64,000 nucleotides of DNA from Zygnema cylindricum (Eukaryota; Streptophyta; Zygnematophyceae; Zygnematales; Zygnemataceae). Below, piece after piece: positions 6,101 to 64,000 of the stretch. Location: assembly GCA_037447655.1 (NCBI GenBank), contig JBBHKE010002650.1, positions 1 through 64,000 on the forward strand. Reading direction: 5' to 3'. Each line of letters starts with the position of its first letter. The stretch's first letter is position 1. The position numbers and the translations under genes are program-made. The notes beneath the pieces are model-generated. The model worked only from the letters and a program-made list of their open reading frames with translations. It was not told the origin of the DNA and made no database searches.

Positions 6101-6328
6101 GTTATTTGTCTGTTTGCAAACAATTTGTTTGTTTGTTTAGTTGTATGGACAAGCAGCCGGACATGATCCGCCAAAACTACGCACATGGCAGTGAAAAAAA
6201 ACCCGACGTCTACAATGTCACGATGAACATTCAATGACACTTTCAATAACACTACTGTATATCCCATTTGTTGACGTATGCGATTGCTTATGTTGTCCAC
6301 GTGTGGGCGTCTACAAATGTCAGGAGCT

Positions 6329-36286: not shown

Positions 36287-36778
36287 TTTCGCGCTAGGCT
36301 TAGCTTAGGCTAGTTCTCAGACTTAGAGAATGTAGCTATTGGACAAGAATTTTCTCTTGGCGGCGGAGCTTTCTCTTGCTCTCTCTCTCGCCGATTGCTC
36401 ATGCTTTCTATTTGTTATTGCTAGCTCGCTATAGAGGCTAGATAGGTTACGAGTATTTGCTCTTGTATTTCTGCCCACGTTTTTAATCCACGCGGCCTAA
36501 GGCCACGTCCGGAAGGTTTCCCTCCAAACTTGGTCTTTGGGTAGAAGTGTGGAATTGGAGATTGTGGGGGAGCACATCTGGACCTTGCTGTGCCTTCTTT
36601 GGGCAGCGTGACGGTTTGGTTGTGTGTGTGTCTTGTTTGTATTTCGGTTGGCTTAGAAAGAGTGCATTTTTGATCGGATTTGGATTTTCCCTTGTTCCGG
36701 TTGGAATATTTCCTGCTTTGTTGTCATAACGAGAAAAATCTTGTAGGGAATGTGATAAAGACCAGAGAGCCTAGTGGC
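36287..36778 (+). other. GD1 3' non-coding region and presumed LTR start
   Basis: About 490 bases after the integrase stop, matching 63053-63542 at almost every base. A purine tract GATTGTGGGGGAG at 36561-36573 is the likely polypurine tract, which would place the 3' LTR start just after it; the LTR boundary was not proven. Confidence 0.55.
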
Positions 36779-37990
36779 GCTTAACATTCTTGTCCAAAAG
36801 GCTACTAAAAAAAATCCTATTGAATATATAAATTTTATTTTATAAGGAAAAAAAAAAGAAAAAAAAACATTTTGTTTTGTTTTCCACTATTTCTTTCTTT
36901 CAATCTTTGTCTCTTATTGTGCCCCCACTATATTTCTTAGCTTTAGTGTTAAACATAAATTTGCAGCAAATTTAGGGTTAATCTGCAGAATTAGGGTTAA
37001 TCAGCAGAATTAGGGTTTTGGCAGCAGAATTATGGTTGCAACAGATTTAGGGTTTATTCCTTTTTTATTCTAGCCCTTAGGTCGGTATCATTCTACTCAT
37101 TGGCTCCAGATTTAGATTTTTGGCCGTCTGGAACTAAAGTTTAGCGTTGGAATTAGGGTTTTTCAAGTGGAATTAGGGATTGCTGCTGGCTTTAGATTAT
37201 TCTGGTCACAAGTTTAGCTGTATATGTGAAGTTTGAGCAGCCTTTGATTTTTTCTAACGCACTTTTCCTATCTATCGTATTTGTATTTCCTATTTGTTAT
37301 TTTTCTTCTACCGACACCTTCTTTTGTCCTTCAACTGGTCCTCTAACATTCTCCGGTGTACATCTTCACGTTACCGAGAGTCTCGCGGAGGGTCACTTTT
37401 GGAGACGCTGCTCGGAGCGGATTTCGGAGCGAATCACAATCGGGAGCTCTGCAAAATCTGACTGAGTTCGAACCAGCCCGGTTCACTTTTAGTACTCACC
37501 AGAGTGTTAAAAGTGTTTGTAAGTAGCCGATGCCTTACGGGTGCAAGAGCCTTCCGTTATAGTTTGGACGCTCGTTTAGGGGACCGGTGTGGATCGGTTT
37601 CGATCGGAAAATTTTTGATTGAGCATTAACATTTTTCTTGTTTTCCCTGCATGCTATCTGGCTCTAAGTGGCCTTGAAGTTTTCTTGTGACTATCTGGTG
37701 TGGAATTGCTTTCTAGATCTGGCCGTGGGTGACCCTGCATAGGTGTTTTTCACTCTGTGTTGCTTTAGATCTGCACCGAAAGGTGCTTGGATAGCTGCCT
37801 GCTTGTTTATAGACCTGGCCCTTGGGCCTTACCCCTTGTTTGCAAGGTAGAGGATTTTGGTATTTCGACTTTTTGCTAGATGTGACCACCGGGTCTTGAT
37901 AGTGACTGCGTGAGCTGATTGTACGAGTGTGGATTGATCTGACACGTGCTGCATCTCGGTTAGGCCGTTCGAAACATTTCACTATTGTAG
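36779..37990 (+). other. GD2 5' region: presumed LTR/leader, with GCAGAATTAGGGTT repeats
   Basis: Non-coding. The motif GCAGAATTAGGGTT and close variants recur at 36963-37060. Position between GD1's end and GD2's gag suggests a 5' LTR plus leader, but I could not locate an LTR end or a primer site. An in-frame TAG just before 37991 limits gag. Confidence 0.4.
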
Positions 37991-39971: not shown

Positions 39972-40131
39972 TCTCAGTGAACAGTGTTCACCCCACTCTT
40001 CCCCTCATGGACACTGGGGCCAAACCCGTGTTCCTCGGATCCGGATTTTCATCTTAGTGAACAATGTTCACCCCACCCTTCCTCTCATGGACACGAGGGC
40101 CAAACCTGAGATCCTCGGATCCGGATTTGCG
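39972..40131 (+). repeat. 80-bp tandem duplication over the protease active site
   Basis: Units 39972-40051 and 40052-40131. The first encodes MDTGAK, the expected retropepsin active site; the second reads MDTRAK. The unit length is not a multiple of three, so the duplication shifts the frame. Confidence 0.9.
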
Positions 40132-40276
40132 CTCAAGCTTGATCTGACGACAGACAAGCTTCAAGCGACATCTACCCGCCTTCTTACTTTGGCTGGGACC
40201 ACGGAGCCGGTCCTCGGAATCACAAAGGACCCGCTCATATTTTGATTTCGGACAAAAACCAAAAATGAGTCCGTTG
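39972..40276 (+). pseudogene. Gypsy GD2 aspartic protease, N-terminal part
   Basis: Retropepsin-like: VHPTLPLMDTGAKPV, then FALKLDLTTDKLQATSTRLLTLAG. An in-frame TGA lies at 40243-40245. The reading frame continues (TKNESVEI) to the C3 insertion and resumes at 52848. The protease would cut the Gag-Pol polyprotein. Confidence 0.8.
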
Positions 40277-40281
40277 AAATT

Positions 40282-41282
40282 TGCAATTATGTGTCCCCCA
40301 TTGGAACAATGAATTCAAGAAGCCTCTAGGTAACTTTTGGCTAGCCCTCTTTCAATTTGGATCACTGCTACCCAAGCAGGCAAATAGAAAATCTTACTGC
40401 ACCCCTGTGCAGTCTAGACTCCCCTGAGTTCACAACAAAAAGAATCACTGAAAACGCCCAACCAGGCGATTAATTATAAAGTGGCAAAGATGCCAATATT
40501 TATACAAGCTTGTTGGGAGAGAGGTGGCTACCTCCTCAATCCTCTAAGTCCTAAACCCCTCTCACAACCCCTATCTACTGATGTATCAACGAATCAGAAG
40601 ACTGTACAGTACAGAAAGGTATTGAGGCCGATGTACTTTCTGTACGGCTTGTGTACGACAAGGCCATGGAGTGGATGTTTGTCTCTTTCGAACTCGTCCT
40701 CATGCTCTTTGAGATTCCCACTTCACAAATATATCTTGCCACGTGTCGCCAGGTCATGTCACGTCCGAAAACCGCCAAGACGGCCATTTAGGGATCCCGG
40801 CGATGATGCGGGCCGTCAGTTCAAAACCGACTTTTAATGTTCGTTTTCCAAAATAACAAATGTCCGGTACATTTGTTTCGTGCGCACTAAAACTTAACTA
40901 GTTTCTATGTTCTTAATTTATTATTCTGTTGAATGAATTAATGATCTTGCTAATGTTTAAATAGCTATCAAACCCTATGTATCCTAACGGACTACTACGA
41001 CAGACCGGTAAGAGCTGACGGCTACGCCTCGCTTTGCCGTTCGGAGGTTCAAGTCCTGCCGTGCTCAACCTTATTGTTGAGAGTGACTTAGGTCACTCTT
41101 TAGTCTTGCCTATGGAGCTGAGGCAGCCATGGCTCCACCGCCCTCTCTCTCCTTCAGTGACTACAACAAGTATGGGGGCTAGAGAGAGAAGGTGGAGGCA
41201 GGCTGCCTGTGCTTTGTCTTTTATTTATTTTACCTAATTTAAGACCTAGAAAAATACCTTCTCTAAATCTGTGATTTCAACA
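40282..41282 (-). repeat. 3' LTR of Copia C3 (L12)
   Basis: Minus-strand LTR, TGTTGAAATCACAG...ATTGCA. The tRNA-like module is on the plus strand at 40989-41066, with a consensus B box GGTTCAAGTCC and A-box-like GGTAAGAGCT. A reverse TATA box is at 40498-40505 and a GTAC hairpin near 40611-40657. Pairs with L15. Confidence 0.9.
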
Positions 41283-43629
41283 CTCCCCTTATTTTGAAGT
41301 CTAATTTCAGTTTCTCTTTTAAACCACACTTTTCTCTACAATATTTTAACTTGGGAGATAGCAAAGGTTTTGTCATCATATCAGCCACCATTTCCCCATC
41401 ACCCCTATACACCAGATTCACAATTTTGTTTTCAACTTTTTCTCTCACAAAACTCAATCTTATATCCATATGTTTAGCTTTGAAATGATGTTTTAGATTG
41501 GCTACAATTGCAATTGCAGCTTGATTATCACATAATACTTCATGGAATCCCTTCCTCATATACCCCAGTTCTTGCAATAAAGACTTGACCCACATCAGCT
41601 CTTTCAAGCAAAACAAGAGGCCATGTACTCAGCCTCCATAGTGGACTAAGCAACCACCTTTTGTTGCTTGCTACTCTAGTAGCAAGCACCTTCCCCCACA
41701 TACAACACATACCCAAAAGTGCATCTTCTCATAGGTGCATCCCCATAACTGGCATCACTCCAAGTGGTGATGTCAGTGTGCTCCCCTCCCAAGTGCAACC
41801 ATAAATCCCTGGTTCCTACCAAGTATCTCATGACTCTCTTGGCTGCCTCCCAGTCTCTCTTCCTAGGATCATTGAGACTCCTACTGAGGACTCCGACTGC
41901 TGCAGCTATGTCCAGTCAGGTACAATTCATAAAGTAAATCAAGCTTCCTACAACCTGTCTGTAAGAAATAGACTTCATAAATTGTCTCTCTTCTGGACTC
42001 ATCTGATCATCTAGTATCATCACTCCTTCTACACTCCCATCACTTACTTTCTTCAAGTCCATGGGAGTGGTACAACTGTTTGCCTTTTCCATCTTGAATT
42101 TCTCAAGCATATTTTTGATAGCTTCTCAAGCATATTTTTGATAGCTTCTCAAGCATATTTTTGATATCTTCTTTCTGAGTAAGTTTGATTATCCTCTTCC
42201 CCCTATCTCTTTCCATTTGAATCCCCAAAGTATGTTTAGCCTCCCCTAAATCCTTTATGTCAAATCTGCTCCTAAGATATTTCTTTAGCTTATTGATCTT
42301 TTCCATAGACTTACTTAACACCAGCAAATCATCCACATAAATTGCAATATAAATCACACCATTCTCATCCTCAAACATATAAATAGAATGGTCAGAACTG
42401 ATCCGAATATATCCCAGACCGGTGAGGAGCTCATCTAGTTTCTTGTTCCATTGTCTGGGAGCCTGGTTCAGTCCATATAAGGACATATAAGGACTTTATG
42501 AGCCTGTAGACTTTGCTCTCCTCTCCTTCCTCTACAAAACCCTCTGGCTTTCGCATGAAGATTTCTTCCTCTAGTTCACCGTTGAGGAAGGCGATCTTGA
42601 TATCCATATGGTGAATTTCCATGTCTTCCGCTGCTGCTAGACTAAGGAGAATCCTTACAGATGGGAACCGAACCACAAGAGCAAAGGTCTCCTCATAATC
42701 TATCCCTTCTTTTCGGGTGAACCCCTTTGCTACCAACCGAGCATTATATCTCTCAATGTTTTTATCTGGGTTCAGCTTCAGTTTAAATACCCATTTGAAC
42801 CCGATAGGTTTTCTGTCTGAGGACAGTCCACCAACTCCCAAGTATTAGCCTCCATAATTGAAGCCATCTCATCATTTATGGCTCTAACCCATCTGTCTCT
42901 CTCCGGACTGTCCATTGCCTCCGAGTATGACTGAGGCTCATCTAGGTGAGGTAGCTTTGTTACCTCACGAGCAACCTGTTTTTCTTGTAGTTGTTTGCTG
43001 CTCCTCCGTCCTCCCTCAAAGTCCGAAGCTGGAATTGAGGGAAGTCTTGGATTCCTCCGGACTGTCTCTTCAGCTCCCCTTTTGATGGAAGTCGGTTTTG
43101 GCTCTTCATCCTCTCTCTCTTCAGAGTGTGTAGAAATATGAGGAAATTTTGAGATATCTCCCCCATCTTTGATCTCCCCTAAATCTGCAATCACGATTTC
43201 ACTAGGGTCCATTTTAGGAAGATCTAAGTCCTCATCAATCTCGGACTCAAAACTGATTCTGATTTTCTTAGTGTATTTGAAGGGATCAAAAGACTTCCCT
43301 TCATCCATGACAACTAGTTGCTTTACAAGAATGATATCTTATTTAGCTAAGTCATAGACTCTATATCCTTTGACATCCTCATCATATCCCACAAAGTATC
43401 CCGGTTTCCCTTTAGCATCGAGTTTCCAGTTTTTCTTATATGTGTCAAGACTGTAAACTTGATAACCAAATACTTTCAAGTGAGAAATATTCGGTTTTCT
43501 TTCAACCCATCTCTCATAAGGTGTCATTCCTTTAACGCCTGTAGTGAGGACTCTATTCTTAATATAATTAGCACAGTTCATGGCTTCTGCCCAAAATCTT
43601 CTTCCTATTTTCTTATCTGCCATCATGCT
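41283..43629 (-). pseudogene. Copia C3 integrase C-terminus, RT and RNase H
   Basis: Minus strand, in order: integrase part (KIGRRFWAEAMNCANYIKNRVL, 43339-43626), linker (42778-43308), RT ([30 protein letters not shown], 42431-42841; catalytic IYVDDLLVLSKS in 42103-42486), connection domain (ISYRQVVGSLIYFMNCT) and RNase H (41263-41616). Moderately preserved; a tandem repeat of AGCATATTTTTGATAGCTTC at 42108-42165 disrupts the RT tail. Confidence 0.88.
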
Positions 43630-44740
43630 ACAATGGAATATAAAACTGGACGAATTTCTGACCGGTTTGGGGTATATCAGAATTAGTTCAGATCACTCCA
43701 TATATTTATTTGAGTATGAGAATGGAGTGATATTTATTGCTATTTATGTGGATGATTTGTTGGTCTTAAGCAAGTCCTTAGATAAGATTAACAAACTAAA
43801 ACGGGATCTTAAGAGTCGTTTTGATATAAAAGATCTTGGTGAAGCGAAGTACATTTTAGGAATTCAAATGGAGAAAGATAGAGGGAATAGAATTATAAGA
43901 CTCACACAAAAAGAAGCAATCGGTAATTTGCTAGAAAAATTTTAGATGGAAAAAGCAAATGGATGTACTACTCCCATGGATTTGAAGAAAGTGTTTGAGG
44001 GGAATGAAGAGAGAGGAATATTGACTTTTAATGATGAGATGGATGAGATAGAAAGAAAATTTATGGAAAATATCCCTTATTGGTAGATTGTAGGCAGTTT
44101 AATCTATTTTATGAATTGTACCCGTCCGGATATAGCCGCAGTTGTAGGTGTCCTTAGTAGAAGTCTAAATGAACCAAGAAAGAGAGACTGGGAGGCTGGC
44201 AAAAGGGTGATGTGGTATCTGGTGGGAACAAGGGATTTGTGGTTGCATTTTGGAGGGGAGCACACTGACATCACCACGTGGAGTGATGCCAGTTATGGAG
44301 ATGTGCCTTTAAAGAGGTGTACGACTGGATATGTGTTGCAAATAAGATCCGGTGCATGTTGTTGAAGTAGCAAACAACAAAAAGCAGTTGCTCAGTCCAC
44401 TATGGAGGCTGAATACATGGCTTCCTGTGCTGCAATCAAAGAATTAATGTGGGTTAAATCTCTCCTTGAAGAACTTGGGTTCATGAAGGCAGGAACTCAA
44501 AATGTTTTTTGTGATAATCAAGCTGTTATCTCTATTGCAGCTAATCCGAAACATCACTTCAAAGCTAAACATATGGATATAAGACCAAGCTTTGTCAGAG
44601 AGAAGGTAGAAATTAAAATAATTAAACTGGTTCATAAAACTGGTAAAGAAATTATTGCAGACATGATGACAAAACCAGTGCCTTCCCCTAAGTTGATTTT
44701 TTGCAGAGAAAACTGTGGATTAAAATTGAAAACTGACTAG
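43630..44740 (+). pseudogene. Copia C4 RT C-terminus and RNase H (inverted segment)
   Basis: Plus strand, starting QWNIKLDEFLTGLGYIRISS, i.e. directly after the point where the minus-strand C4 RT breaks off at 46367. It has the catalytic IYVDDLLVL, connection domain and RNase H (STMEAEYMASCAA, CDNQAVISI). Stops at 43943, 44085 and 44364. The purine tract AATTAAGGGAAG precedes the LTR at 44754. Confidence 0.88.
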
Positions 44741-44753
44741 GAATTAAGGGAAG

Positions 44754-45615
44754 TGTTGAAAAGAGGTAATTAATAGTTCACTTCTCTAATTTATTTCCAC
44801 TTTAAAGAGAGAGAGTGAGGATCAAAGGCACGCCCTTGCTGCCCCGATATATAAAAAGTGGCAGCGTTAGAAGTAGAGGATATTATACCAAAATAGTGCC
44901 TAGGTCCAGATTTCAACCTGGGTCTGTGAACCTCTATATAGTCGTACGTCTTAACCACTAAGGCATTATCGAAACGATACACGTGACGGGTTTCAAAGAT
45001 ATATAAACATTAACGCAACAGCTAATTAACACCAGACTAATGAAAAGGAACAATTCATACATGTACGCGAATCTGAACCGTGTAAAATATGTTTTGATCG
45101 GACGGTCGGCATTGGCGGCATACGGAGATAGCGTCACGCGGTGCCACGTGGCGCCATATTAATTGATATCGGAGAAGATGGAAGGAGGAACCATGGCTTC
45201 CAATTTGACAGGTGTCACCTTGTAGACCTTGTCGTACAATGGTTGTACAATAAGTACATCGCCCATTCTACCTTCTTGTACTATATAGTGTTCCTATTGG
45301 ACTAGGGTTTAGTAGTAGGTAGTCGTGAGTAGGCAGACCAAGACTTAGTAATATTTAGGTACCTCTCTCTAAGAGAGCTTGTAACTATAAAGGTCATCTT
45401 TGACCAGCCATAACTTACTGCTCAAGGGAGCAAATTCAGTGATTTTTTTTGCGTTTGACTATGGGGAGTCTTTTCCTCACAGGGGTGAGGGTGGTCATAG
45501 TAATTATGTGCTTGGGCGGCGCCTATTCAGTGGGAAAGTGGTGGGGGCAAATACTATCTTAGAGGCTTTACATAGGCTGCTCATTCTGTGGGTCAATGGA
45601 GACCACAAAATTTCA
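44754..45615 (+). repeat. 3' LTR of Copia C4 (L13, inverted segment)
   Basis: Starts TGTTGAAAAGAGG, ends AAAATTTCA, then TCACC (45616-45620). The antisense tRNA-like module at 44899-44970 resembles Leu/Ser tRNAs (CTTAGTGGTTAAGAC). TATAAAG at 45386. U5 hairpin CCTCAC-AGGG-GTGAGG at 45475-45490. Pairs with L14. Confidence 0.88.
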
Positions 45616-45620
45616 TCACC

Positions 45621-46366
45621 TTCTCAAATGTGCTCTACAATCCCCAGCTGAGTAAAAATCTTGTGTCTACTTCTGTATTAGATGACAAGGATTTTGATAC
45701 CTTTACTAGAAAGGGAGTCTTTAGAGCTCAGTAGGGAGATGAAGTCTACTTCACAGCAGATAAGGGTAGCCAAGGAATGTTTAAGCTTAACCGGAGTAAT
45801 GAAAAGAAGAGTGCTTACTATGGTGGTGTCTCGAGCTTGATCATCTGGCATAAGCGGTTGGGGCATATGCATTTTGATAGGCTGAGGGAAATGAAGAAGC
45901 TGGGTGTAGTAGAAGGCATTCAGTTTGGGGATAATGAAATGATGGATAGGCTATGCCCAAAGTAAGGTTTACAGACTTCCCTTTCCAAAAACTGCAACAT
46001 ATAGAGGTGATAAAATACTAGATCCGGTCCACACAGATATCTAGGGACCAGCCAGAGTACCTTTAGTTGGGGGGAAGAGGTATATGCTGACAATTACTGA
46101 TAATTGGTCCACATATTCTAGAGTCTACTTCCTAAAAACAAAGTCTGAAACACCAAAGTACTTCAAAGAATACCAAGCTTGGAGTGAAAAGTTGCACGGA
46201 ACCCCCATTAAGAGAATAAGAAGTGATAATGGGGGAGAGTACACCTCTTACCAGTTTGAAGAATACTTGAGAGATGAGGGAGTTCAACATCAGAAAACTG
46301 TATCGAATAATCCAGAACAAAATGGGGTAGCTGAGAGGTTGAATCGGACTTTGGGAGATAGTGTGT
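45621..46366 (+). pseudogene. Copia C3 protease end to integrase core (inverted segment)
   Basis: Plus strand: the end of the protease/linker (NPQLSKNLVSTS-like), integrase zinc domain (IWHKRLGHMHFD), catalytic core (TDNWSTYSRVYFL, IRSDNGGEYTS, EQNGVAERLNRTLGD). It stops at the inversion breakpoint; the next integrase residues are on the minus strand from 43629 leftward. Confidence 0.88.
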
Positions 46367-48640
46367 ATAGAGTGATTTTATCAATTTGCAAACCTTGCTT
46401 TCTTCCCCACTTTCCACGAATCCTTTTGGTTGCCTCATATAAATTTATTCTTCCAACTCTCCGTGCAAAAAGGTCGTTTTAATATCCATCTGGTGTATTT
46501 CCATATCCTCTACTGTGGCTAAACTTAAAAGGATTCTAACAGAAGGAAATCTGACTACAGGTGCAAAGGTTTCTTCGTAGTCTATCCCCTCTTTCTGAGT
46601 ATACCCCTTTGCAACTAACCTAGCTTTGTACCTTTCAATTGTATTATCCGCGTTTAATTTAAGTTTAAAAACCCACTTACATTCGATCGGTTTTCGGTCC
46701 GGTGGACAATCTACCAACTCCCATGTATTGGCTTCCATGATGGAGGCCATTTCTTCATTTATAGCAGTGATCTACCGACTACTTTCTAGGGTGTTTATGG
46801 CCTCTAAGTATGTTTGAGGTTCATCTGGGTGAGACATCTTTGTGAGTTGGTTATTTACTTGTCTTTCTTGAAGTCGTTTACTACTTCTTCTTCCCCCTTC
46901 AAAATCGGACGCCGGTATGGAAGGCATCCTTGGGTTTCATTTAGGAATATTTTCAGCTTCCCCATCTTCTAATTCCAGTGTCTCATCAAGTTCCTCATCG
47001 GTTTCCTCTTCGTATTGTGGCGTTGCCTCGGATGTTGTCATTTCCTCCTTCTCTTTTGGTAGATCTGCAGATTTTTCTTTTTCTCCATCTTCCTTCTCTT
47101 CAAAGTCAAAGTCAGAAAACTGATCCGTTTCAAATCTGATTTTGACTTCCTTATTATATTTGAATGGATCAATGGACTTCTCTTCATTCATCACCACTAT
47201 GTGTTTTACCAAAATTATATCTCTCTTTTTCAAGTCATACACCCGGTATCTTTTTGTGCTCTCATCATATCCTACAAGATATCCTGGTTTTCCTCTTCTC
47301 TCTAACTTCCATTTAGTCTTATCAAAATCCAAACTGTAGACTTCACTTGCGAACACTCTTAAACTAGACAAATCAGGCTTTCTTGCTGTCCACCTCTCAT
47401 ACGCAGTTTCCTCCTTATTTGCTAAAGTAAGGACTCTATTTTTGATGAAATTAGCATAGTTCATAGACTCAGCCCAAAATTGCAACCCTATCCTCTTATC
47501 AGTTAACATACTTCTAGACATATCTCCTAAAGTTCTATTCACTCTTTCGGCTACTCCATTTTTTTCCAGATTATAGGGAACAGTTTTCTCATGATGAATT
47601 CCTTCTTCTTAAGATATTCTTCAAATTCCCTTGCGTTTATTCTTTCCCATTATCACTTCTTATCTCTTTTATTAAGGTTTTATGTAGTTTTTCACTCCAT
47701 ACTTTAAACTCTTTGAAACATCTTAATACCTCTGACTTATGTCTGAGAAAGTATACCTTCGTGTATCTAGACCAATCATCTGTGATGGTTAACATCCATC
47801 TCTTCCCGCCATGTGAAACATACCTAGCTGGTCCCCAAACATCAGTGTGAAATAGATCCAATACTTTCTCTCTCCTAAATGTGGTTGCCTTTGGAAATGG
47901 AAGTCTATGAATCTTCCCTTGGGCACATCCACTACAATCATCAAAAGACTCATCATCCTCAAAAGTGATACCCTCCACTTTTTCATTTTTCTTCATTTTC
48001 TTTATTCTATCTAGATGCACATGCCCCAATCTTTTGTGCCAAAGATCATCTCACCTATACACGAGCAAAGAACACTCTTTTCATTGCAAAGAACAATTTT
48101 GAACATCCCTTGACTGACATTCTCAACTATGAAATAAACCTCATTCTCAAAGCTTGCTGTGAAGATTCCTTTCCTAGTTCCTGTTTCAAACTCCTTTTCA
48201 TCTAGGACAGCTATTGAGACTATGTTCTTGCTAAGCTGTGGAATGTAAAGAACGTCTGAGAGTGTTACAATTGAGGCCTTTCCATCAACTTAAACCTTCT
48301 AGTCAACAGTTCCAACAAGACTTGTGGTTTCTACTCTACCATCTTCGTACTCTATTTCAACTGTTTGGATCTTTCTCAGTTTAGTGAATCACCGCTTATC
48401 TTTGCACATATGCATTGAAGCCGCTGAGTCTATGATCCACCCATCCTCGGGTGGATCCCTCTTACCTTCGAAAGCACACTTTTGTCTCCGTGGAATGTCG
48501 ACATGCTTTTCAGTGGTTTTTGGATTAAGAAGAAGTTCCTCAAGCTCCGCTTCCTGTTCGGTTTCTTCGTCCTCTTCCTCATCATGAACTTGAGTCAGGA
48601 AAGCCTTTTTCTTTCCTCCATCCTTTGATATTTCTTGTCC
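46367..48640 (-). pseudogene. Copia C4 protease end, integrase and RT N-terminus
   Basis: Minus strand: zinc-domain and core integrase (GHVHLDRIKKMKK ... CSGCAQGKIHRLPF, DVWGPARY, TDDWSRYTKVYFL, 47637-48029), C-terminal integrase and acidic linker (46937-47542), RT lead ([25 protein letters not shown], 46445-46750) ending KLIKSLY at the breakpoint. Minor stops and frameshifts. Confidence 0.87.
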
Positions 48641-49643
48641 ATCTTTCAGTCGAAGATCTGCAAATTTGACACAATTTGCCATATAGTGTCCCGGTTTCTT
48701 GCAGAAATGACATAATCCTTCTCGAGAAGTTCCTCTCCCCTGTCTTTCAAATCTGCCACCTCCTTGTCCTCTTCCACCAAAGTTTCGATAGGGATCTTTC
48801 CCTCTCTCCTCATCATGCTTCCGCCAATCAGCTCTTGCAGAAAATGCTTGAACACTTGGACTCCCTCTCCTTAGCTCTATGGTGCTTTTTTTCACTAAAA
48901 TCATTCCCACTGTGTCATCCCAATTCCAATTGCTATCTCTCATGTCCTGCAATCAGTTAATGATATTCTCATACTCTTCAGGTAGTTTTATCATTAATGT
49001 ATTCACTCTTTGTCTCTCAGACCATGAGTTACCTGCACTCTCTAGCTCTCTAAACAATGCTCCTAAATCATTGCAATAATTATTCATGCTTCCTCCCTTA
49101 TAAGTATAAGCTGCGATCTTATTTTCTGCCAATTGTTGCTGCTACAATGATCCACTCTTATATTTGTTAACTAGTGATGTCTAAATCTGAGATGAAGATT
49201 TGACATGCATAACGGGAATGGCAATGCCCTTTGCTACACTTTTAAGAATTAAGAGCTTAGCAACCTTGTCTTTGTAGTTCCACTTTTCATACTCTGATCT
49301 TTCGGTCTGAACCCTTGTCGTTGTTGCTGGTGGTGCTGCTGCCGGTATCGCCTTCGGCAATGGTGTTACTTGAGTTGCAACTCCTTCCTTTTCTCCTTCC
49401 ATGACAATCTCCTCTCCTTCCTCATCTTCATCCTCGATGATGGTGGCAGCTGTTCTTGCTACTGTAGTGACGGAGGTGCTAGAAAAACGTGTCCCTCCAA
49501 ACCCAAGTGGAGGTGGGCATCCAATTTGTCCAGACACTATGCCCCATAGATGCTTCTCAAATAGATCTCCCTCCATCATCATTTCCTAATACAAAAAGTC
49601 CGATCCATCAAATATGGGCACCCTAGAGGGTGGGCCCATAACC
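48389..49643 (-). pseudogene. Copia C4 gag and protease active site
   Basis: The minus strand starts MGPPSRVPIFDG in the primer site at 49629-49643. Gag pieces 49181-49582 and 48389-48952 include an intact CCHC knuckle CHFCKKPGHYMANC and, further on, the protease motif WIIDSAASMHMC, where the expected Gly is Ala (DSA, not DSG). Frame breaks lie between the pieces. Confidence 0.85.
49629..49643 (-). other. Primer-binding site of C4
   Basis: GGTTATGGGCCCACC on the minus strand, adjacent to the LTR end at 49644. Exact complement of the initiator tRNA-Met anticodon stem-loop. Confidence 0.82.
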
Positions 49644-50541
49644 TGAAATTATGTGGTCTCCAGTGACCCACAGAATGAGCCGCCTATGTAAAGCCTCTAA
49701 GATAATATTTGCCCCTTCCACTTTCTCACTGAATAAGCGTTTCCCAGGCACAAAAGTGTTATGACCACCAACACCCCTATTAGGACAAGACTCCCTTGAG
49801 TCAAACGCAAAAAAATCACTGAATTTGCTCCCATGAGCAGCAAGTGAGCAGTAAGTTATGGCTGGTCAAAGATGACCTTTATAGTTACAAGCTCTCTTAG
49901 AGAGAGGTACCTAAATATTAGTAAGTCTTGGTCTGCCTACTCACGACTACCTACTACTAAACCCTAGTCTAATAGGAACACTTTATAGTACAAGAAGGTA
50001 CAATGGGCGATGTACTTATTGTACGACCACTGTACGACAAGGTCCACAAGGTGACACCTGTCAAATCGGAAGTCATGGTTCCTCCTTCCATCTTCTCCGA
50101 TATCAATTAATGTGGCGCCACATGGCACCGCGTGATGCTATCTCCGTATGCCGCCAAAAGCTCACTTCACGTGGCGGCTATAATGCCGACCGTCCGATCA
50201 AAACATATTTTACACGGTTCAGATTCGCGTACATGTATGAATTGTTCCTTTTCATTAGTCTGGTGTTAATTAGCAGTTGCGTTAATGTTTATATATCTTT
50301 GAAACCCGTCACGTGTATCGTTTCGATAATGCCTTAGTGGTTAAGACGTACGACTATATAGAGGTTCACAGACCCAGGTTCAAATTTGGACCTAGACACT
50401 ATTTTGGTAAAATATCCTCTACTTCTAACTCTGCCACTTTCTAAATATTGCGGCAGCCATGGTGTGCCTTTGATTCTCACTCTCTCTCTTTAAAGTAAAA
50501 TCAAATTAGAGAAGTGAACTATTAATTACCTCTTTTCAACA
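49644..50541 (-). repeat. 5' LTR of Copia C4 (L14)
   Basis: 898-base minus-strand LTR, TGTTGAAAAGAGG...ATTTCA. The Leu/Ser-like tRNA module is on the plus strand at 50325-50397, with A box CTTAGTGGTTAAGAC and B box GGTTCAAATTT. A reverse TATA is at 49878-49884. Right flank GGTGA (50542-50546) is the complement of TCACC, the other half of the target duplication. Confidence 0.9.
50325..50397 (+). other. tRNA-like module in LTR L14 (Leu/Ser type)
   Basis: Plus strand: TGCCTTAGTGGTTAAGAC resembles the D-arm of plant Leu/Ser tRNAs and AGGTTCAAATTT a T-loop. Its partner in L13 (44899-44970, minus) conserves both boxes. Confidence 0.55.
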
Positions 50542-51862
50542 GGTGAGTATGGAAGTCTTACCCTCCACTAAAACTTTCAGAACTACTGAGACCACTAGAT
50601 TTGTGGTAACTACTCTCCCATCCTCATACTCTATTTCTACAGTAGGGATCTTTTTTAGCTTAGTAGTGAAGAGGTGCCTGTCACGGCACATATGCATGGA
50701 TGCACCTGAATCGATGATCCATCTTTCCTCTGGAGCTTCCAGAATGGCTCCAAGGGCACACTTCTGTTTCCGAGAAATCTCCTTCTCCTCCAAGTTCTCC
50801 TCAAGGAGAAGCTCCCCATCCTCCTCCTTAGAAGACTCGTCTTCCTCGGTCTCTCCTTTCACCCGTGTGACATGAAGTGCTTTCTTCTTCCCTCCGAAAA
50901 ACCCCCTCCTCGGTTTTCTTGGAGCCTCAGCTCTGACAGCTTGATGCAATCAGCTATGAAGTGTCCCGACTTTTTGCAGAAATGGCAAAGACCTTTTGGA
51001 GGCCTGGGTTCTCCAGATTGATCCCCTTTGAAGCTGTTGTACGGCTTTTTTGGGTCCTTCCTCCACCGGTCTGTTCCGGCAGCTAGAGCTTGAATGCTCT
51101 TTCCTCTTCTGCGGAATCTCGAAGGTGTTCTCCTGCATGAGTATCATTCGGACCACTGTGTTCCACTTCCAAGAGCTATCATCCATTTCTTGCACTCGGT
51201 ACACTATGTTTTCTTACTCCTCAGGCAGCTTCATGATGAGAGTGTAAACTTTCATCTTCATTGTGCCTATCCATCCGGCACTCTCCATCTCCATATAAAG
51301 GCAAGAGAGATCATTACAGTAATCTAACATCTTCCCTGTTTTGTAAGTATAACTCCCCAACCTTTGCTCCACCAGCTAGAGCTCTTGAATGGTACCAGCT
51401 CTATAGATCTCCACTAAAGTCATCCACAACTCCTCGGCCTTGAAGATGTGAAGATGAGAGGTCGCCAGAGCTTGAGTGAGGTGCCTCAGAATGAAATGCC
51501 TGGCATTCATGTTGGTGTACTCCCACATTTGAATATCGTTTTCCTTGGTCTTCACGACCACCGCTCCGGGTGACGTGGCAATAGGAGTGAGAGGTGTCCT
51601 TTCCTTTCCCCTTTTCGGACACAATGTTGTCCCCATCAGCCGTCTTCTCCGTTGGAGCAGATGCTACTGCAGAAAACCTCACTGCATCAAAACTAGGTGG
51701 AGTCTCCTGGGATGGACATTTCACTCGTCCACTAACGATACCCCAATATCGTTTTTCACACAATGCCCCCGTCATCATGGCTTCCCAGTAAATGAACCCA
51801 GATCCGTTGAAGATAGGCACCCTAGAGGGTGGGCCCATAACCTGCAATTCTGTGTCCCCCAT
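50542..51862 (-). pseudogene. Copia C3 gag and protease
   Basis: The minus strand starts at an ATG inside the LTR (51862; MGDTELQVMGPPSRVPIFNG) and runs through the primer site (51828-51842). Gag core pieces 51376-51636 and 50950-51204; the zinc knuckle is read across a frameshift near 50960. Protease motif WIIDSGASMHMC at about 50720. It ends SILTC where C4 inserted. Confidence 0.86.
51828..51842 (-). other. Primer-binding site of C3
   Basis: GGTTATGGGCCCACC on the minus strand, directly after the LTR end at 51843 and inside the gag frame. The ATG is the complement of the tRNA anticodon CAU. Confidence 0.83.
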
Positions 51863-52842
51863 TGGAACAATGAATTCAAGAAGCCTCTAGGTAACTTTCG
51901 GCTACCCTCTTTCAATTTAGATCACTGCTACCCAAGCACGCAAATAGACAATCTGACTGCACCCCTGTGCAGTCTGGACTCCCTTGAGTTCACAGCAAAA
52001 AGAATCACTGAAAACGCCCAACCAGGCGATTAATTATAAAGTGGCAAAGATGTCAATATTTATATAAGCTTGTTGGGAGAGAGGCGGCTACCTCCTCAAT
52101 CCTCTAAGTCCTAAACCCCTCTCACAACCCCTATCTACGGATGTACAAACCAATCAGAAGATTGTATAGTACAGAATGGTACTAAGGTCGATGTACTTTA
52201 TGTACGACTTGTGTACGACAAGGCCATGGAGTGGACGCTTGTCTCTTTCGACTCGTCCTCCTGCTCTTCGAGATTCCCGCTTCCCAAATATATCTTGCCA
52301 CGTGTCGCCAGGTCATGTCACGTCCGAAAAACCGCAAAGACGGCCATTCAAGGATCCCAACGATGATGCGGGCTGTCGGATCAAAACCGGCTTTTAATGT
52401 TCGCCGTCCAAAATAACAAATGTCCGGTACATTTGTTTTGTGCGCACTAAAACTTAACTAGTTTCTATGTTCTTAATTTATTATTCCGTTGAACGAATTA
52501 ATGATCTTGCTAATGTTTAAATAGCTATCAAACCTTATGTATCCTAACGGACTACTACGACAGACCGGTAAGAGCTGACGGATACGCCTCGCTCTGCCGG
52601 TCGGAGGGTCAAGTCATGCCGGACTCAACCTTTTTTGTTGAGAGTGACTTAGGTCACTCTTTAGTCCTCCCTATGGAGCTGAGGTAGCCATGGCTCCACT
52701 ACCCTCTCTCTCCTTCAGTGACTACAACAAGTATGGGGGCTAGAGAGAGAAGGTGGAGGCAGGCTGCCTGTGCTTTGTCTTTTGTTTATTTTACCTAATT
52801 TAAGACCTAGAAAATACCTTCCCTAAATCAGTGATTTCAACA
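51843..52842 (-). repeat. 5' LTR of Copia C3 (L15)
   Basis: 1000-base LTR matching L12. The tRNA-like module is on the plus strand at 52549-52626 (GGTAAGAGCT A box; B box mutated to GGGTCAAGTCA). A reverse TATA is at 52058-52067. The outer end TTTCAACA is followed by the AAATT duplication. Confidence 0.9.
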
Positions 52843-52847
52843 AAATT

Positions 52848-52952
52848 TTCGTCAAAGCACTGGTCACTAACGACTATGAGTGTTTGGTGGGTCAAGACGT
52901 TATATTCAGAATTGGGGGTGGAGTGGTCATGCACGACCAAACATTCTCTTAG
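52848..52952 (+). pseudogene. Gypsy GD2 protease, C-terminal part
   Basis: Reads FVKALVTNDYECLVGQDVIF and then RIGGGVVMHDQTFS to a TAG at 52950-52952. The VGQDV segment is the conserved retropepsin C-terminal motif (usually [IL][IVL]G-D-L). It is in frame with the pre-insertion part and with the methyltransferase frame that follows the TAG. Confidence 0.78.
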
Positions 52953-53012
52953 CGACCGACACACTTTCCGAAGCGCAAAATCTGCCTCCCTCTCATTTCA
53001 CCCCGCCAACCT

Positions 53013-54280
53013 TTGCCCACTATGGCTCACTCGGCTATGGCTCAACTCGCATTTTTGGGGAACTATGCTGGGGAGGAAATTTTCCACTCCCTTTCATCCA
53101 AAGAAATCATATCGTATAGTTCTCCCTTACCCAAGCTCTTTGCTGAACCGGGTTTCCTTATCGATTCTCACACATTGGACCACATCTATAAGTCTACATT
53201 ACCTATACCATTAACACCTATCCCTCCCATTCCTTCAGTAGCTACCAATCCTTCAGGGTTCCTCCCTATTAATTGGAAGCCTGTACAGATGAGTCCTCAT
53301 ATGGACAGGGTCGTTATTTTAGACTTATTTGCTGGGATCGGAATTTCCCTGCTGTCATGTTTACGAAATGGGCTTCTTATTCGTCACTATTATGCGGTGG
53401 AAATAGATACTATAGCTAGAAAGGCACAGGTACATCACTGGAATCTCTTACATTCCCAGTATCCAACGTTTGCTTTCTCTCATATGCACACGGCTTTTCC
53501 ACAGGACATCAACATCCTTAAAAACCACCACCTACGGGATGTAGAGCCGATAGACCTTGTTTTCGAGGGGTGGGAGTGTCAAGGCATTTCTCGAGCCGGC
53601 AAAGGTCTTGGTTTGGCGGATCCCCGTATAAAATTATCTTTTGAACTTCTTAGGATCCTTCATTTTCTCCAAACTCAGGACCGGCCTGTCGGATATATTT
53701 TGGAAAAGGTGTCTGCTTATAATGACCCACGGCCCATGGTTTTGGCTGATTATAAGTGTATTGAACACCTAATTGGACCTCCTCTAATAATTGATGCCGC
53801 TCGGCATGGGTCCCTGGCTCATCGAGTTTGCTCCAAATGGACGAACCTAATCGATGTCGGTCGTCTTCGTGAAGCTAATCTGTCAGTAAGGCCTCCCACT
53901 GTCGACATTAAGACCACCTTACTTCCCTTTCACCAATTCCAAACATGCGTCTTCCTAGACTATCCTCCTAATTACCACACCAATGTAGTCAGTCAACCAC
54001 TGAAGGTCCTTCCTACCTTGGTGGCTTTTCTTAATGCACACAAATACTCGCATAGTGGTCCAGGCATGCTCCGAAACATTGTCACAGAGGAGTTGAGGAG
54101 CATACCGCCACAGAGAGGGAGCATCTAATGCATTTTATTCCTGGCACTACTGCGGCCATCGGCCTTACAGAACTACAAAGGTGCACACTGCTAGGTAGAG
54201 TCATGGACCCTCAGTACTTGTCATTTGTTTTGGGTCTGGGTTTGGCAGCTAGTCGCTACGCACAGACTCATCAGTCGTAA
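53013..54280 (+). pseudogene. C5 cytosine DNA methyltransferase domain inside Gypsy pol
   Basis: An open frame of 371 codons (53013-54128; open since 52953) has the ordered motifs of a DNA cytosine-5 methyltransferase. Motif I is DLFAGIG (residues 104-110), the SAM-binding loop; the motif II acid is E130 (YYAVEID). Motif IV is FEGWECQGISRAG with the candidate catalytic Cys189 (53577-53579), but the usual Pro before it is Glu. Motif VI is LEKV in place of ENV. A motif VIII-like block is AARHGSLAHRVCSKWTN (262-278). After a frameshift near 54090 the C-terminal block (MHFIPGTTAAIGLTELQR, resembling motifs IX-X) runs in another frame to a TAA at 54278-54280. It sits between protease and RT in one polyprotein, so it belongs to the element. 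The expected role is methylation of cytosines in DNA, possibly the element's own copy; this copy is broken. A DNMT3-like relative is plausible but not proven. Confidence 0.85.
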
Positions 54281-54289
54281 TCAGCTAAG

Positions 54290-55360
54290 GGGGGGGGATC
54301 ACACACCATTATCACAGTATAGTCTTTTCCGTGCTTCCCTAGGCCTTCGAGGTAATCCGGTTCAGTTTTTTCTCTTTCCATCTCGGACTGAGTCTCGTCC
54401 GGATATCACAATCTACGATTTCCTTAACCCTAGTCACATGTCATGGGAGATTCCAGCCTATACCGCTGTTCAGTCCACCCCTTTCCCTTCTGCCTCGTCG
54501 GTCCCACATTGGACGGCCACATATCCCACTCGCTTCAGGCACCACTGGGTGAACTGCCTGCAGCAAACGCCGGTAAAATACAAGTTAGGCCACTTCCTCA
54601 TTGTTGATAAGCAAATCGCATTTGCTCAGGCGATGGAAGCTTTCACTATCAAGAGTCCTAAGACGCCCAAGTGGAAGTTCGGTTTCAGCCTCACAAAGGC
54701 GGAACATGCACTGTTGAGTGACAAAGTCACCCGTCATATAGACGCGTTTGCTTTCTCCATGAATGACCTTGGACGTCATTCTACTTACAAAATGTTAATC
54801 GACCTTCAAGACGATCGACCCATCTTTAAGCCGAAACACCGTCTCTCTAAGATGGAATGGGAAATGGTGGACAAAAGATGTGCACAATTGGAAGAAGCCG
54901 GTCTAATCTATCGGTTGGATTCCACCTTTGCCGCCCCCACACTCATGCGTAGGAAGAAAGATTCCGACAGAAATTTTACTGAGCGAAGAATGTGTGGGGA
55001 ATACCGAGAGCTCAATGCTCGGACTGTTCAAGACCGCCACCCTATGCCTCTAGCGGAGGAAATATTTGACCATGTAGGTGGTGCAAAGTTTTTTAGCATT
55101 CTTGACTTACGTCAAGGGTTTAACCAGATTGAAATCAAGGAAAGAGATAGGCATAAAACTGCATTTTGGGGTAGTGATGGTCGGTTAGAATGGGCAGTCA
55201 GACCTAGAAAATACTAATAAAACCATTAGTTTCTACACCGTGTTTCAAAAAGTCATGGATTCGGTGTTGGGTGGATGTAAGTTTGCTCGGTGCTACATCG
55301 ATGACTTGATAATTCTTCCGCCACGGTTGAGAAGCACGCCCGCCATATTGAGTGGGTTCT
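54290..55360 (+). pseudogene. Gypsy GD2 reverse transcriptase
   Basis: The frame 54225-55217 is convincing from about 54300: KMLIDLQDDRPIFKPKHRLS (lead-in), CGEYRELNARTVQDRHPMPL, LDLRQGFNQIEI (first catalytic Asp). After a frameshift at about 55217 the active-site CYIDDLIIL follows (YIDD at 55294-55305), then another 1-base loss near 55320. A G9 run at 54289-54297 sits where the frame passes from methyltransferase to RT. Confidence 0.87.
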
Positions 55361-55382
55361 CACCGAGTTAAAGAAAGTCGGA

Positions 55383-56307
55383 TTGAAGTGTCACCCAGCC
55401 AAGTGTACTTTCGGTGCAGAGGGAGTGCCCTATCTCGGCCATTTTAAATCGGCTAAGGGCATCACTCCCTTAGAAGCTAAGGTAGAGGCGATCACCAAAC
55501 TGCCAGCCCCCACCGATCTCACTAGTCTGAGGGCTTTTCTCGGACTAACCAATTATTACCGTCGTTTTGTACTGAATTTTAGTACGATTGCTTCTCCCCT
55601 CAATGATCTTCTCAAAAAAGAAGTGCCTTGTGTTTGGGGACCCGCCCAAGTCAAAGCGTTTCAAAAAATGAAAACCGCCCTTTCCAGGGCTCCAATCCTT
55701 CAACCTCCTAACCACAAGCTTCCCTTTTGCCTACAAACCGATTTCGGAAGGCCTGACATTGCGGCCATTTTAATGCAAAGAGAGTTGAATGGAGAGGAAT
55801 ACGTAGTGGCATACGCCAGCCGGAGAAATAACCGAGCTGAATCTAATTACAGTAGTTACGAGGGTGAATGTCTCGCCGCGGTATGGGGTATTGTTCATTT
55901 TCGACATTATCTTTATGGCAAGCCATTCACGCTCCTAACTGATCATCAACCCCTTCACTGGTTGATGACCAACGATAAGATTTCAGGGAAGCTTGCCCGA
56001 TGGGCTTTAATTTTACAAGAGTACGACGTTGAGATCATCCATCGGCCCGGTTTGTTAAGCTTGAACGCCGACGGGATTTCCCGCAATCCACTACCTCGGA
56101 CCTCCGATAACGGGGTCCGTCAAAATTTTGACGAGGACGAGGTACCAGCCATGTCGGTTGGTTCCTATATCACTTACTGTCTCTCTTCTATTCCTCAACC
56201 TCGGCCGGCAACATATCCATGGCGGGACGACCCATTAATCCTATTCCTCTCCTCTCAAACCTTTCGGCCCAGTACTACCGCTGAGGAGGAAGACCGAGTG
56301 AAGAAAC
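55383..56307 (+). pseudogene. Gypsy GD2 RT thumb and RNase H
   Basis: One clean frame: KCHPAKCTFGAEGVPYLGH, LRAFLGLTNYYRRFVLNFS, then RNase H with TDFGRPDIAA, SSYEGECLAAVWGI and LLTDHQPLHWL, giving the acidic residues of the nuclease. It ends at 56307 where LTR L16 begins. Best preserved enzyme segment of GD2. Confidence 0.9.
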
Positions 56308-57404
56308 TGTTGAAAAACAGGTATTTTGTAGTCTCTCTTGTGACCTTACTGCAGCCCTCATACTTGTCGTAGTCACTGAGGACCTGCAGGCAGCCATGGC
56401 TGCCTCTAGCAGCTAAAGAGACAGGCAGATCACTAACATTAATTTTCCAAAACTAGTCTGGCAGTTGTGGGAACTGATCCAAGGACCTTCTGGATGACCG
56501 TCGTACAGAATTGCCATGCGCCTTATCCAATAGGTCTTAGAAGAGCGATACACGTATATGACGCGATAATTATTTAAAGATGTACGTCGCCGGATATTCC
56601 CTTTAAAACAAATTACGCGACATACCGGTTCGCACGAAATCGAACGGTACAAAATATCCGAATCGACATGTAATTTCGACGGACGAAATCAAATGTTCCG
56701 ATATTATCGAACGGCTCACAGTGGAGCCGAAATGCCGAAATAGAAGTTTGGCGTTTTGCGGACCAGATGTCGGCGTGGCAACATATGGTTGACAGCGGAT
56801 ATTACAAGAGGAGCAACTACGGCTCCGGAACTGACACGCGTCAGCGAACCAGCCATGCCGTACTATGGCCGTACAAAAAAGTACACTGGTACTTATACCT
56901 TCTTGTACTTTACAGTCATATGATTGGTCGAGTATCTTAGTAACAGGTTTAGAGAGGTAGCTTAGGACTTAGAATATTTTTGAGTTTTCAGCCTCTCTCC
57001 TAAGTGCACCGGCCATGAGGTACTATGGCCGTAGAAGAAGTACAACGGTACTTGTACCTTCTTGTACTTTACAATCATATGATTCGTCAAGTATCTTAGT
57101 AATAGGTTTAGAGAGGTAGCTTAGGACTTAGAATATTTATGAGTTTTCAGCCTCTCTCCCAAAGTGCACCTGTATTTATGGACCAACTTTGGTCACCCAT
57201 AACTTAATGCTCAGGGGAGCAATTTCAGTGATTCTTTTTGCAGCGGACTCAGGGGAGTCCAGGCTACACGAGGGTGTAGTTTGTCAGAGTTTTTGCGTCC
57301 CAGGGTGGGACCTATTCATTGTCAAAGTTAAAAGTGCATATACTATTCTAGTGGCTTTACATAAGCTGGACATTCTGTGTACCAATGGAGGTCACAGAAT
57401 TACA
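56308..57404 (+). repeat. Left LTR of Copia C5 (L16)
   Basis: It has the 18-base palindrome AGGCAGCCATGGCTGCCT (56388-56405), an antisense Arg-like tRNA module (56455-56541; CCTATTGGATAAGGCGC), a tandem duplication of about 158 bases covering the GTAC hairpin to the pre-TATA region (56855-57009, 57010-57168), a TATTTAT box at 57173, and U5 stems GGACTC-AGGG-GAGTCC and CTACAC-GAGG-GTGTAG (57243-57280). Confidence 0.88.
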
Positions 57405-62038: not shown

Positions 62039-63052
62039 GCACGCTATTGGTGGTCCGGAATGCAAGCGGATGTGGCGCCCATTCTCCACAAATGCGCCAC
62101 ATGGGACCGGTTACGCACCTCTTTCTCTAATCGGCAGGTGTTTCAATAGCCATTGCCCATCAAACGATTGTTTTATCGCTGGTTCGTAGATCTCGCCGGA
62201 CCGTTTCCCTTATCTCGAAAGGGGAAATAATACATCATGATAATGATTGAAAATTTTAGCAAGTGGGTAGAGGTGGTCGCTCTTCCCCACAAGACTGCTA
62301 AATTGACCACCGATGCTTTTAAAGAGCATGTTCTCAAATGTTATGGAGCTCTTGCGGAGGTTCTCACGGACCAGGGTACGGAGTTCCGAGGGGAATTTCA
62401 AAAGATGTTAGATGAAGCTTTAATTCATCATCGCCCGACAAGTCGTGATCACCCACAAGCCGATGGCTTGGTGGAGCGAGCTGTCCAAACTTTCAAGCGG
62501 GCTCTCCGAAAGCATTGTTTGGAGAAACACATCTCCGTATGGGACGAATCCTTGGGCTATATCACCATGGGCTACCAGATGTCCGTACATGCTAGCTCTG
62601 CTAATTTCAGCGTGTACTATATTCTCTTCGGTCGATTACCCTTGCTCGGTCAGAATATTCAGAAAGCATCAAGTTCACCTTTGCCTCTAATGTTTGACAC
62701 CATATTTTTGGATGAACTAACTTGCCGTGCTTTGCTTTTCGCTCGTGAGATGCCCATGGCTTTTGATAAAGTGCAGATTGCCCAACATCGGGATACTTTA
62801 AGGTTCGCCACCACGCGGAGTGGTAGTTACAAGCCACAACAGAAATCCTACCGGGTCGGCGATTACTTGTACCTCCGACAACAGTCGTTCGATACTTTGG
62901 ACACAAATGTTTCACCACACATTCTTCGTGTGGTAGAAATGGATGCTAACGGGATGTTGGGTTTGCATGGTGCGGATGCTAGGACAATGCGAGAGCACTC
63001 GAAGAACTGTGCACCTTGCTACTTACCTGATTTGTCACAAGATATGGACTAG
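62039..63052 (+). pseudogene. Gypsy GD2 integrase
   Basis: It resumes after C5 in the zinc domain (YWWSGMQAD-like, HKCAT-like) and continues through a frame break to 62237-63052, a 271-codon frame with DQGTEFRGEF, HPQADGLVERAVQTF and the NCAPCYLPDL end. The first 260 bases of this frame differ from GD1 at about 22 positions; the rest is identical. Confidence 0.85.
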
Positions 63053-63542
63053 TTTCGCGCTAGGCTTAGCTTAGGCTAGTTCTCAGACTTAGAGAATGTA
63101 GCTATTGGACAAGAATTTTCTCTTGGCGGCGGAGCTTTCTCTTGCTCTCTCTCTCGCCGATTGCTCATGCTTTCTATTTGTTATTGCTAGCTCGCTATAG
63201 AGGCTAGATAGGTTACGAGTATTTGCTCTTGTATTTCTGCCCACGTTTTTAATCCACGCGGCCTAAGGCCACGTCCGGAAGGTTTCCCTCCAAACTTGGT
63301 CTTTGGGTAGAAGTGTGGAATTGGAGATTGTGGGGGAGCACATCTGGACCTTGCTGTGCCTTCTTTGGGCAGCGTGACGGTTTGGTTGTGTGTGTGTCTT
63401 GTTTGTATTTCGGTTGGCTTAGAAAGAGTGCATTTTTGATCGGATTTGGATTTTCCCTTGTTCCGGTTGGAATATTTCCTGCTTTGTTGTCATGACGAGA
63501 AAACTCTTGTAGGGAATGTGATGAAGACCAGAGAGCCTAGTG
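63053..63542 (+). other. GD2 3' non-coding region and presumed LTR start
   Basis: Matches 36287-36778 with only a few differences. The likely polypurine tract is again GATTGTGGGGGAG. The match stops at 63542. Bases 63543-63755 are unassigned T-rich sequence. Confidence 0.55.
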
Positions 63543-63755
63543 GATACCTCTCGGCTTAACATAAATTTTAGGGGTCACTTCACGTTAGGGGAGTATTCTT
63601 CCCCTTTTCTCCTTTGGTTATTTTCACCTTTATTCTTTGGCATGATGTATATACATTTTTTCCTTCTCATTCATTTTTTGTTTGTATATATGGTTGTGAG
63701 CATGACTTAGCTGGTTAGGATGCATAGTTTACCTTGCTTCTCACTTATGCACGAC

Positions 63756-64000
63756 AGTGGCGCCAGGTCATGTCACGTCAAAAACCGCCAGAGTGGCCAT
63801 TCCGAGATCTCGGCGATGATGCGAGCCGTCGGATCCAAACCGACATTTAACAATAGATGTTGAAACTAATGTCTGGTACATTTGTTTCGTGCAGACTCAG
63901 ACTCGCACTTATTTTTAACTAGGCTCCTTGTTCTACATCCGTAATTCCGTTAATTGGATTAAATTCCTTTAACATTGTTTAAATACAATTCAAACCCAAT
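63756..64000 (-). repeat. Copia LTR fragment L18, runs off the window
   Basis: Begins CGCCAGGTCATGTCACGTC and follows L12 (from about 40747) through the late part of U3, toward the tRNA-like module, which would lie beyond the window end. Confidence 0.75.

Follow-up and report, generated by a model that had tools for sequence, protein, structure and literature searches.

A DNMT3-type cytosine methyltransferase domain in the polyprotein of a Ty3/Gypsy retrotransposon family of Zygnema cylindricum

We analysed a stretch of 64,000 nucleotides from Zygnema cylindricum (assembly GCA_037447655.1, contig JBBHKE010002650.1, positions 1 to 64,000 of the forward strand), here called the window. It contains a degenerate Ty3/Gypsy retrotransposon in which a candidate cytosine methyltransferase lies between the protease and the reverse transcriptase (RT). 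The plus strand has a stop-to-stop open frame of 391 amino acids at 52953-54128 whose product contains a C5-cytosine methyltransferase domain; among 100 first-order Markov windows the longest frame reached 211 amino acids. An earlier note on this DNA had proposed that identity, and the Pfam search it called for yielded DNA_methylase (PF00145) with E=2.1e-8 and 34.4 bits, above the curated cut-off of 22 bits. DNMT3A chains from PDB match the window methyltransferase at 9e-6, and the phrog_116 DNA methyltransferase matches the frame at 3.5e-15. With tblastn the frame finds 357 phage records, and the best E of the 20 matches listed is 1e-9; in a plasmid search, the 20 matches listed out of 54 were all bacterial enzymes. 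No relative was found by a single-protein search of genome and viral contig collections, which may lack the closest relations of the window's genome. The AlphaFold model of the domain is weak (mean predicted local distance difference test score 59, core blocks 51-89), and all 23 helper sequences came from viral contigs.

Motif I (DLFAGIG) is at 53322, VEID at 53397, motif IV at 53565-53600 with the catalytic Cys codon at 53577 (residue 189 counted from 53013), motif VI at 53697 and motif VIII at 53817. The earlier note had located DLFAGIG, VEID and the cysteine correctly. Its order of motifs also stands, with two corrections: motif IV reads ECQ instead of PCQ, and the C-terminal block with motifs IX and X lies in frame +2 at about 54095-54270 (TEREHLMHFIP at 54110, LLGRVMD at 54188). 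In two other copies of the family, L109 (=L121) and L117, this block is in frame with the rest of the domain, and thus the window copy is frame-shifted near 54080-54110. Stops interrupt the frame common to protease, methyltransferase and RT at 52950, 54126 and 54192, and the RT is broken near 55217-55305. Given the latter two stops, the broken RT, the frame shift and a Copia insertion in the protease, the window copy is dead. Taken alone, the C-terminal 68 residues (frame +2), the protease piece next to the domain, the RT piece in frame 1 and 54195-54700 each gave no relevant Pfam match. Rfam and tRNA scans of the window found nothing.

A search of the genome (352.8 Mb, 2689 contigs) gave at least 1986 first-look candidates, including at least 106 scored matches to the window protein (E <1e-138, 56-100% identity). 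Five copies with long frames (L117-L121) were chosen and examined at 10 kb each. The best copy, L117, has a single stop-free frame of 2395 amino acids comprising gag zinc knuckles, protease, methyltransferase, RT, RNase H, a DDE integrase and a PHD finger. The continuous frame that the earlier note had assigned to the window copy is thus broken there and present in this copy, and the intact protease-methyltransferase-RT order that it proposed to look for in the genome exists. Pieces of the frame match zf-CCHC at the cut-off, DNA_methylase (2.2e-12, 47.5 bits), RVT_1 (9.5e-31), RT_RNaseH (2.2e-35), Integrase_H2C2 (7.8e-16), rve (2.2e-11) and PHD (5.7e-11); the aspartic protease match (9e-4) is below the cut-off. 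The order protease-RT-RNase H-integrase is that of Ty3/Gypsy elements, and no piece matches a tyrosine recombinase in Pfam at E 0.01. The window copy is a degenerate member of a large Ty3/Gypsy family with the polyprotein order seen in L117. The stop-free frame of L117, lying between 931-bp repeats without a mismatch, suggests that the family is apparently young and looks alive.

The PHD finger is readable in all five near-complete copies, with the Pfam match established in L117 and one Cys replaced by Ser in L121. The closest solved chains are those of PHF12 (6e-17), a KDM5 (8e-13) and BAZ2B (3e-12), all of which are histone-tail readers.

The window has the following features. Element positions are those of L119.

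34744..36282, plus strand: another RNase H-integrase piece from this family, situated to the left of the element; 90% identity to L119 6780-8320
36304..36803, plus strand: piece of terminal repeat B; 77% identity to the left B of L119
36819..40048, plus strand: leader and gag region; 85% identity over 3287 columns to L119 259-3532
38773-39315, plus strand: gag-like frame within this region; no Pfam match on its own
40057..40281, plus strand: N-terminal part of the protease, up to the Copia insertion point; 90% identity to L119, DTRA and TRLLTLAGTTEPVLGITKDPLIF read directly
40277..40281, plus strand: left copy of the target duplication AAATT, read in the sequence
40282..52842, minus strand: Copia element within the protease, itself carrying nested insertions; long terminal repeats (LTRs) 40282-41282 and 51843-52842, 93% identical
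51401-51886, minus strand: gag-start-like frame of the Copia element, named by resemblance only
52843..52847, plus strand: right copy of AAATT, read in the sequence
52848..52952, plus strand: C-terminal part of the protease (LVGQD), with an in-frame stop at its end; in frame with the N-terminal part minus one AAATT, no Pfam match alone
52953..54128, plus strand: linker and putative DNMT3-type methyltransferase, motifs I-VIII; PF00145 and DNMT3A matches as above
53577..53579, plus strand: catalytic Cys codon of motif IV (ECQ)
54095..54270, plus strand: methyltransferase motifs IX and X in frame +2, ends approximate; no Pfam methylase match alone
54195..56372, plus strand: Gypsy RT and RNase H, with the frame break; RT_RNaseH 3.8e-34, RVT_1 2.8e-5 and 0.0013, neither reaching the family cut-off
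62039..63048, plus strand: integrase part of the same family, lacking the PHD finger; 90% identity to L119 7311-8320, its 96.7%-identical copy at 35273-36777 matches rve at 7e-9
63070..63757, plus strand: end of terminal repeat B, then A', terminating in CACGACA; by comparison with L119

The C-terminal part of the protease adjoins the methyltransferase as the earlier note had said, but the N-terminal part lies beyond a 12.6-kb Copia nest. Positions 3461-3685 of L119 correspond to window 40057-40281, and 3681-7149 to 52843-56307; since these matches overlap by the five duplicated bases, the Copia element was inserted into the protease with duplication of AAATT. Without one of the two AAATT copies, the protease (DTRA to TRLLTLAGTTEPVLGITKDPLIF) continues in frame into LVGQD and on into the methyltransferase, interrupted by two stops. 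A 77-bp direct duplication (39972-40128, 88%) at the DT(R/G)A motif doubles the start of the protease in the window copy.

The other parts of the element are found at three places, separated by Copia sequence that includes Copia Pfam matches at 58664-60016: RNase H, integrase and B at 34744-36803, leader, gag and protease at 36819-40281, and integrase, B and A' at 62039-63757. A single deletion (36282/36304 and 63048/63070) has apparently removed the PHD finger, the polypurine tract, A and the beginning of B from both integrase pieces. The RNase H-integrase-B piece directly left of the leader is found again at the right end (35273-36777 and 62039-63543, 96.7% identical), so that 34744-36803 and 62039-63543 are arranged as in a tandem of two copies with a common PHD deletion. 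Two further features were observed: another Gypsy RT/RNase H remnant on the minus strand (33480-34282, about 47% identical to that of the element) and a 132-bp tandem duplication (59533-59796, 96%) inside the Copia pol frame, which repeats a stretch of the protein.

The stops and the frame shift of the window copy, taken alone, could mean that a host or foreign methyltransferase gene landed in a single copy without any role in the element. The other copies make such a stray capture extremely improbable. Linkage was analysed in 32 family sequences, the window copy included: 27 loci, left from the first 30 after removal of three that duplicate later ones, and the five near-complete copies. The methyltransferase adjoins the protease in 29 of 32 sequences and the RT in 29 of 32, within the stretch examined. 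Over 26 copies, protein distances of the methyltransferase correlate with those of the protease (r 0.63) and the RT (r 0.44), values reached in none of 999 permutations; the protease-RT correlation is 0.42 (1 of 999 permutations). These data, together with the number of scored matches, the single frame of L117 and the Markov windows, rule out a stray insertion or chance frame and bear out the earlier note, which regarded the domain as part of the element. Neither of the two outcomes that it had named as fatal, absence of a match to the C5 family and a stray insertion missing from other copies, was obtained.

Pairwise ratios of nonsynonymous to synonymous substitution rates (dN/dS) are saturated for most pairs of near-complete copies, and differences by codon position were used instead. 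Between L117 and L119 the fractions of codons differing at positions 1, 2 and 3 are 0.23/0.08/0.62 in the methyltransferase, 0.12/0.04/0.60 in the RT, 0.12/0.04/0.57 in the integrase, 0.18/0.17/0.59 in the protease and 0.26/0.07/0.64 in the PHD finger. The third-position excess in these divergent copies, present in the methyltransferase as in the RT, is counted as support for selection on the methyltransferase and as a point against stray capture. The close pair L120/L121 has little skew (methyltransferase 0.027/0.018/0.055, RT 0.028/0.028/0.036), as expected for changes after insertion.

The family profile matches DNMT3A (1e-8, 37.8 bits) better than DNMT2 (0.0019), HhaI (0.0065) and DRM2 (0.069) in PDB. 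The domain thus appears to be of the DNMT3 type, being nearer, among PDB entries, to DNMT3 than to DNMT1, DNMT2, DRM or bacterial enzymes. By sequence, phage-type enzymes score above DNMT3A (up to 63 bits with the same profile), and the phage DNMT3-like methyltransferases of phrog_116 are the best-scoring sequences in the collections searched. This agrees with a domain derived from a virus or phage and not from a host DNMT3 gene, an origin that we consider unlikely.

The termini of the element are unusual. L117 has the structure B (931 bp, 100% identical) - internal region - poly-G tract - A - B - A' (99.6%). Such split direct repeats, B-internal-A-B-A', similar to those of DIRS elements, were found in four of the five near-complete copies, which rules out a simple LTR-internal-LTR layout in these four. 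Identities of the repeats are 99.5% for both B and A in L120, 96.6% (main piece) and 96.8% in L121, and 80% and 95.7% in L119. The fifth copy, L118, has A-B-A' only, with a B 226 bp shorter than in L117; this end looks like an imprecise circle junction. The right ends of L118 and L117 are 99.7% identical over about 990 bp. Tandem LTRs belonging to neighbouring copies were considered for the right end of L117, a reading abandoned once the left ends had been examined. The element runs from TGTCATGC to GCACGACA, with left outer ends TGTCATGCCG in 4/4 copies and right outer ends CATGCACGACA in 5/5. It is flanked by 4-bp target duplications, TTGG (L117), CCCT (L120), CCAT (L121) and TCAT versus GCAT in the older L119, exact in three of four. 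The internal A/B junction, CACGACA-GC-TGTCATG in all five copies, consists of the same two outer ends, 2 bp apart.

We infer that the split repeats may originate from a circle. Standard reverse transcription, with an LTR (A-B) starting from the polypurine tract, would produce A-B-internal-A-B. The complementary DNA (cDNA) would then circularise into a two-LTR circle, and the integrase would open one A/B junction inside the LTR, giving B-internal-A-B-A. To our knowledge, integration from a two-LTR circle cut inside the LTR has not been known for other LTR retrotransposons.

In plants and many algae, cytosine methylation is one of the main brakes on transposons, and thus a transposon carrying a methylation enzyme is a paradox. 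We favour, with moderate confidence in the whole, an explanation in which the DNMT3-type enzyme marks the element's own cDNA, the PHD finger steers, and a circle integrates. The protease would free the methyltransferase inside the particle, and the enzyme would methylate cytosines de novo in the cDNA of the element itself (or in DNA beside the insertion). The new copy would thus carry host-like marks by the time it reaches the nucleus. At the end of the integrase, the PHD finger would bind a histone H3 tail and direct the landing site.

DNMT3-type enzymes act on chromatin, and this one has a PHD finger in the same polyprotein. It may therefore target chromatin at the insertion site, other elements or host genes instead of its own cDNA, as a weapon or as a means of taming insertion damage. 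The published discussion of related elements considers insertion-site effects and a slower, less harmful element (PMC5890265, main text). However, since its neighbours in Pol are the protease and the RT, the domain should be packaged along with the machinery of cDNA synthesis, and we regard a chromatin target as rather improbable.

The chemistry of the domain was assessed in 30 copies, those most like the window copy and not a random sample. The family has ordered motifs I, IV (Cys), VI (ENV), VIII, IX and X. The catalytic Cys is kept in 30/30 copies, the Asn of motif VI in 29/30 (the window copy has EKV) and the first Arg of motif VIII in 25/30; the window copy has Cys (AHRVC) where 26/30 copies have Arg. 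On the other hand, motif IV is ECQ in 29/30 copies, whereas Pro precedes the catalytic Cys in 86 of 88 viral frames, most of the viral loci having been picked by patterns requiring P or E there. Only 20/30 copies retain the last Gly of motif I. Moreover, the domain of a related element, KnitGypsy-Dnmt3, gave no methylation in yeast, but DNMT3B failed there too (PMC5890265, main text). One could thus imagine a domain with lost or changed chemistry, a nucleic-acid-binding or RNA-methylating helper of the RT. The conserved residues argue against it, and losses are expected as many copies are dead; we think this option has little probability.

Several observations weigh against the favoured explanation. 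Apart from the yeast result, the glutamate of motif IV could weaken catalysis. With medians over scorable pairs, dead copies included, dN/dS is 0.51 in the methyltransferase (248 pairs), 0.40 in the RT (125) and 0.41 in the protease (159), so that the methyltransferase is somewhat less constrained than the RT, as the codon-position differences also indicate. No left B was found in 1.45 kb upstream of L118. The ratio of observed to expected CpG is 0.70 for the whole window, as compared to 0.90-0.94 for the near-complete copies L117-L121; since the latter are hardly CpG-depleted, there is no strong footprint of self-methylation. Finally, changes away from L119 were counted with L120 as outgroup in the 17 of 27 copies (L089-L113) that passed a filter of 0.78 identity, the window copy being among the ten dropped. 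C-to-T changes were observed at 436/4529 CG, 428/4073 CHG and 674/12866 CHH sites (H is A, C or T), as compared to 352/11111 for A-to-G and 350/11606 for T-to-C. The rise at CG and CHG over CHH, pooled over related copies, fits plant-type methylation of the genomic copies, and this decay is explicable by host enzymes. Like the resemblance to KnitGypsy-Dnmt3, the CHG signal makes a streptophyte host likely.

A more specific proposal is that one element combines a DNMT3-type writer with a likely H3 reader, copying the de novo logic of the host, and DDE integration from a two-LTR circle cut inside the LTR. We put it forward tentatively, as possible but short of probable. Such termini would uncouple DIRS-type split repeats from the tyrosine recombinase, two features thought to go together. 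The family offers many copies that differ in age, an open frame, a finger of histone type and clear termini, which makes the purpose of the enzyme directly testable.

Methylase-bearing elements are already known from a few algae (PMC5890265), and the present family is a large, apparently young, new set of them. In the main text of that paper (de Mendoza et al. 2018), KnitGypsy-Dnmt3 of Klebsormidium nitens is described as having a DNMT3-related domain in a Gypsy Pol frame. It shares with the present family DIRS-like repeats despite Gypsy domains, and purifying selection on the methyltransferase. By this description the two appear to be of the same kind, and the match in architecture and split repeats favours a common lineage with the charophyte element over a separate capture. 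The KnitGypsy copies carry CHG and CHH methylation (PMC5890265). The present family resides in another genome, and its number of scored matches can be set only against the statement in that text that K. nitens has fewer copies. The word PHD is absent from the main text on KnitGypsy-Dnmt3, Fig. 4c and the supplements aside.

The other elements of that paper, again as its main text describes them, are more distant. SymbioDIRS-Dnmt3 of Symbiodinium also has a DNMT3 domain in Pol with RT and split direct repeats, and its methyltransferases methylate CG in yeast; it has a tyrosine recombinase, whereas the present family has a DDE integrase and 4-bp duplications. With the DIRS class as a whole the family shares the split repeats, but neither the tyrosine recombinase nor the missing target duplication. 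SymbioLINE-Dnmt is likewise a retrotransposon-borne cytosine methyltransferase, but in a long interspersed nuclear element, in an upstream open reading frame and of another DNMT class. Citing the 2018 paper, PMC12344493 refers to DNMT3 members inside retrotransposons, which it names LTR Copia and DIRS. Among the titles listed, from literature mostly outside subscription journals, no further one on a DNMT3-bearing Gypsy element, or on a PHD finger in such an element, was found. The phage DNMT3-like enzymes, unlike the present domain, are encoded by phage genes outside any polyprotein and have the PCQ motif. In comparison with these systems, the new features are the PHD finger, the ECQ motif, a different host, and termini that suggest a circle as the integrating form.
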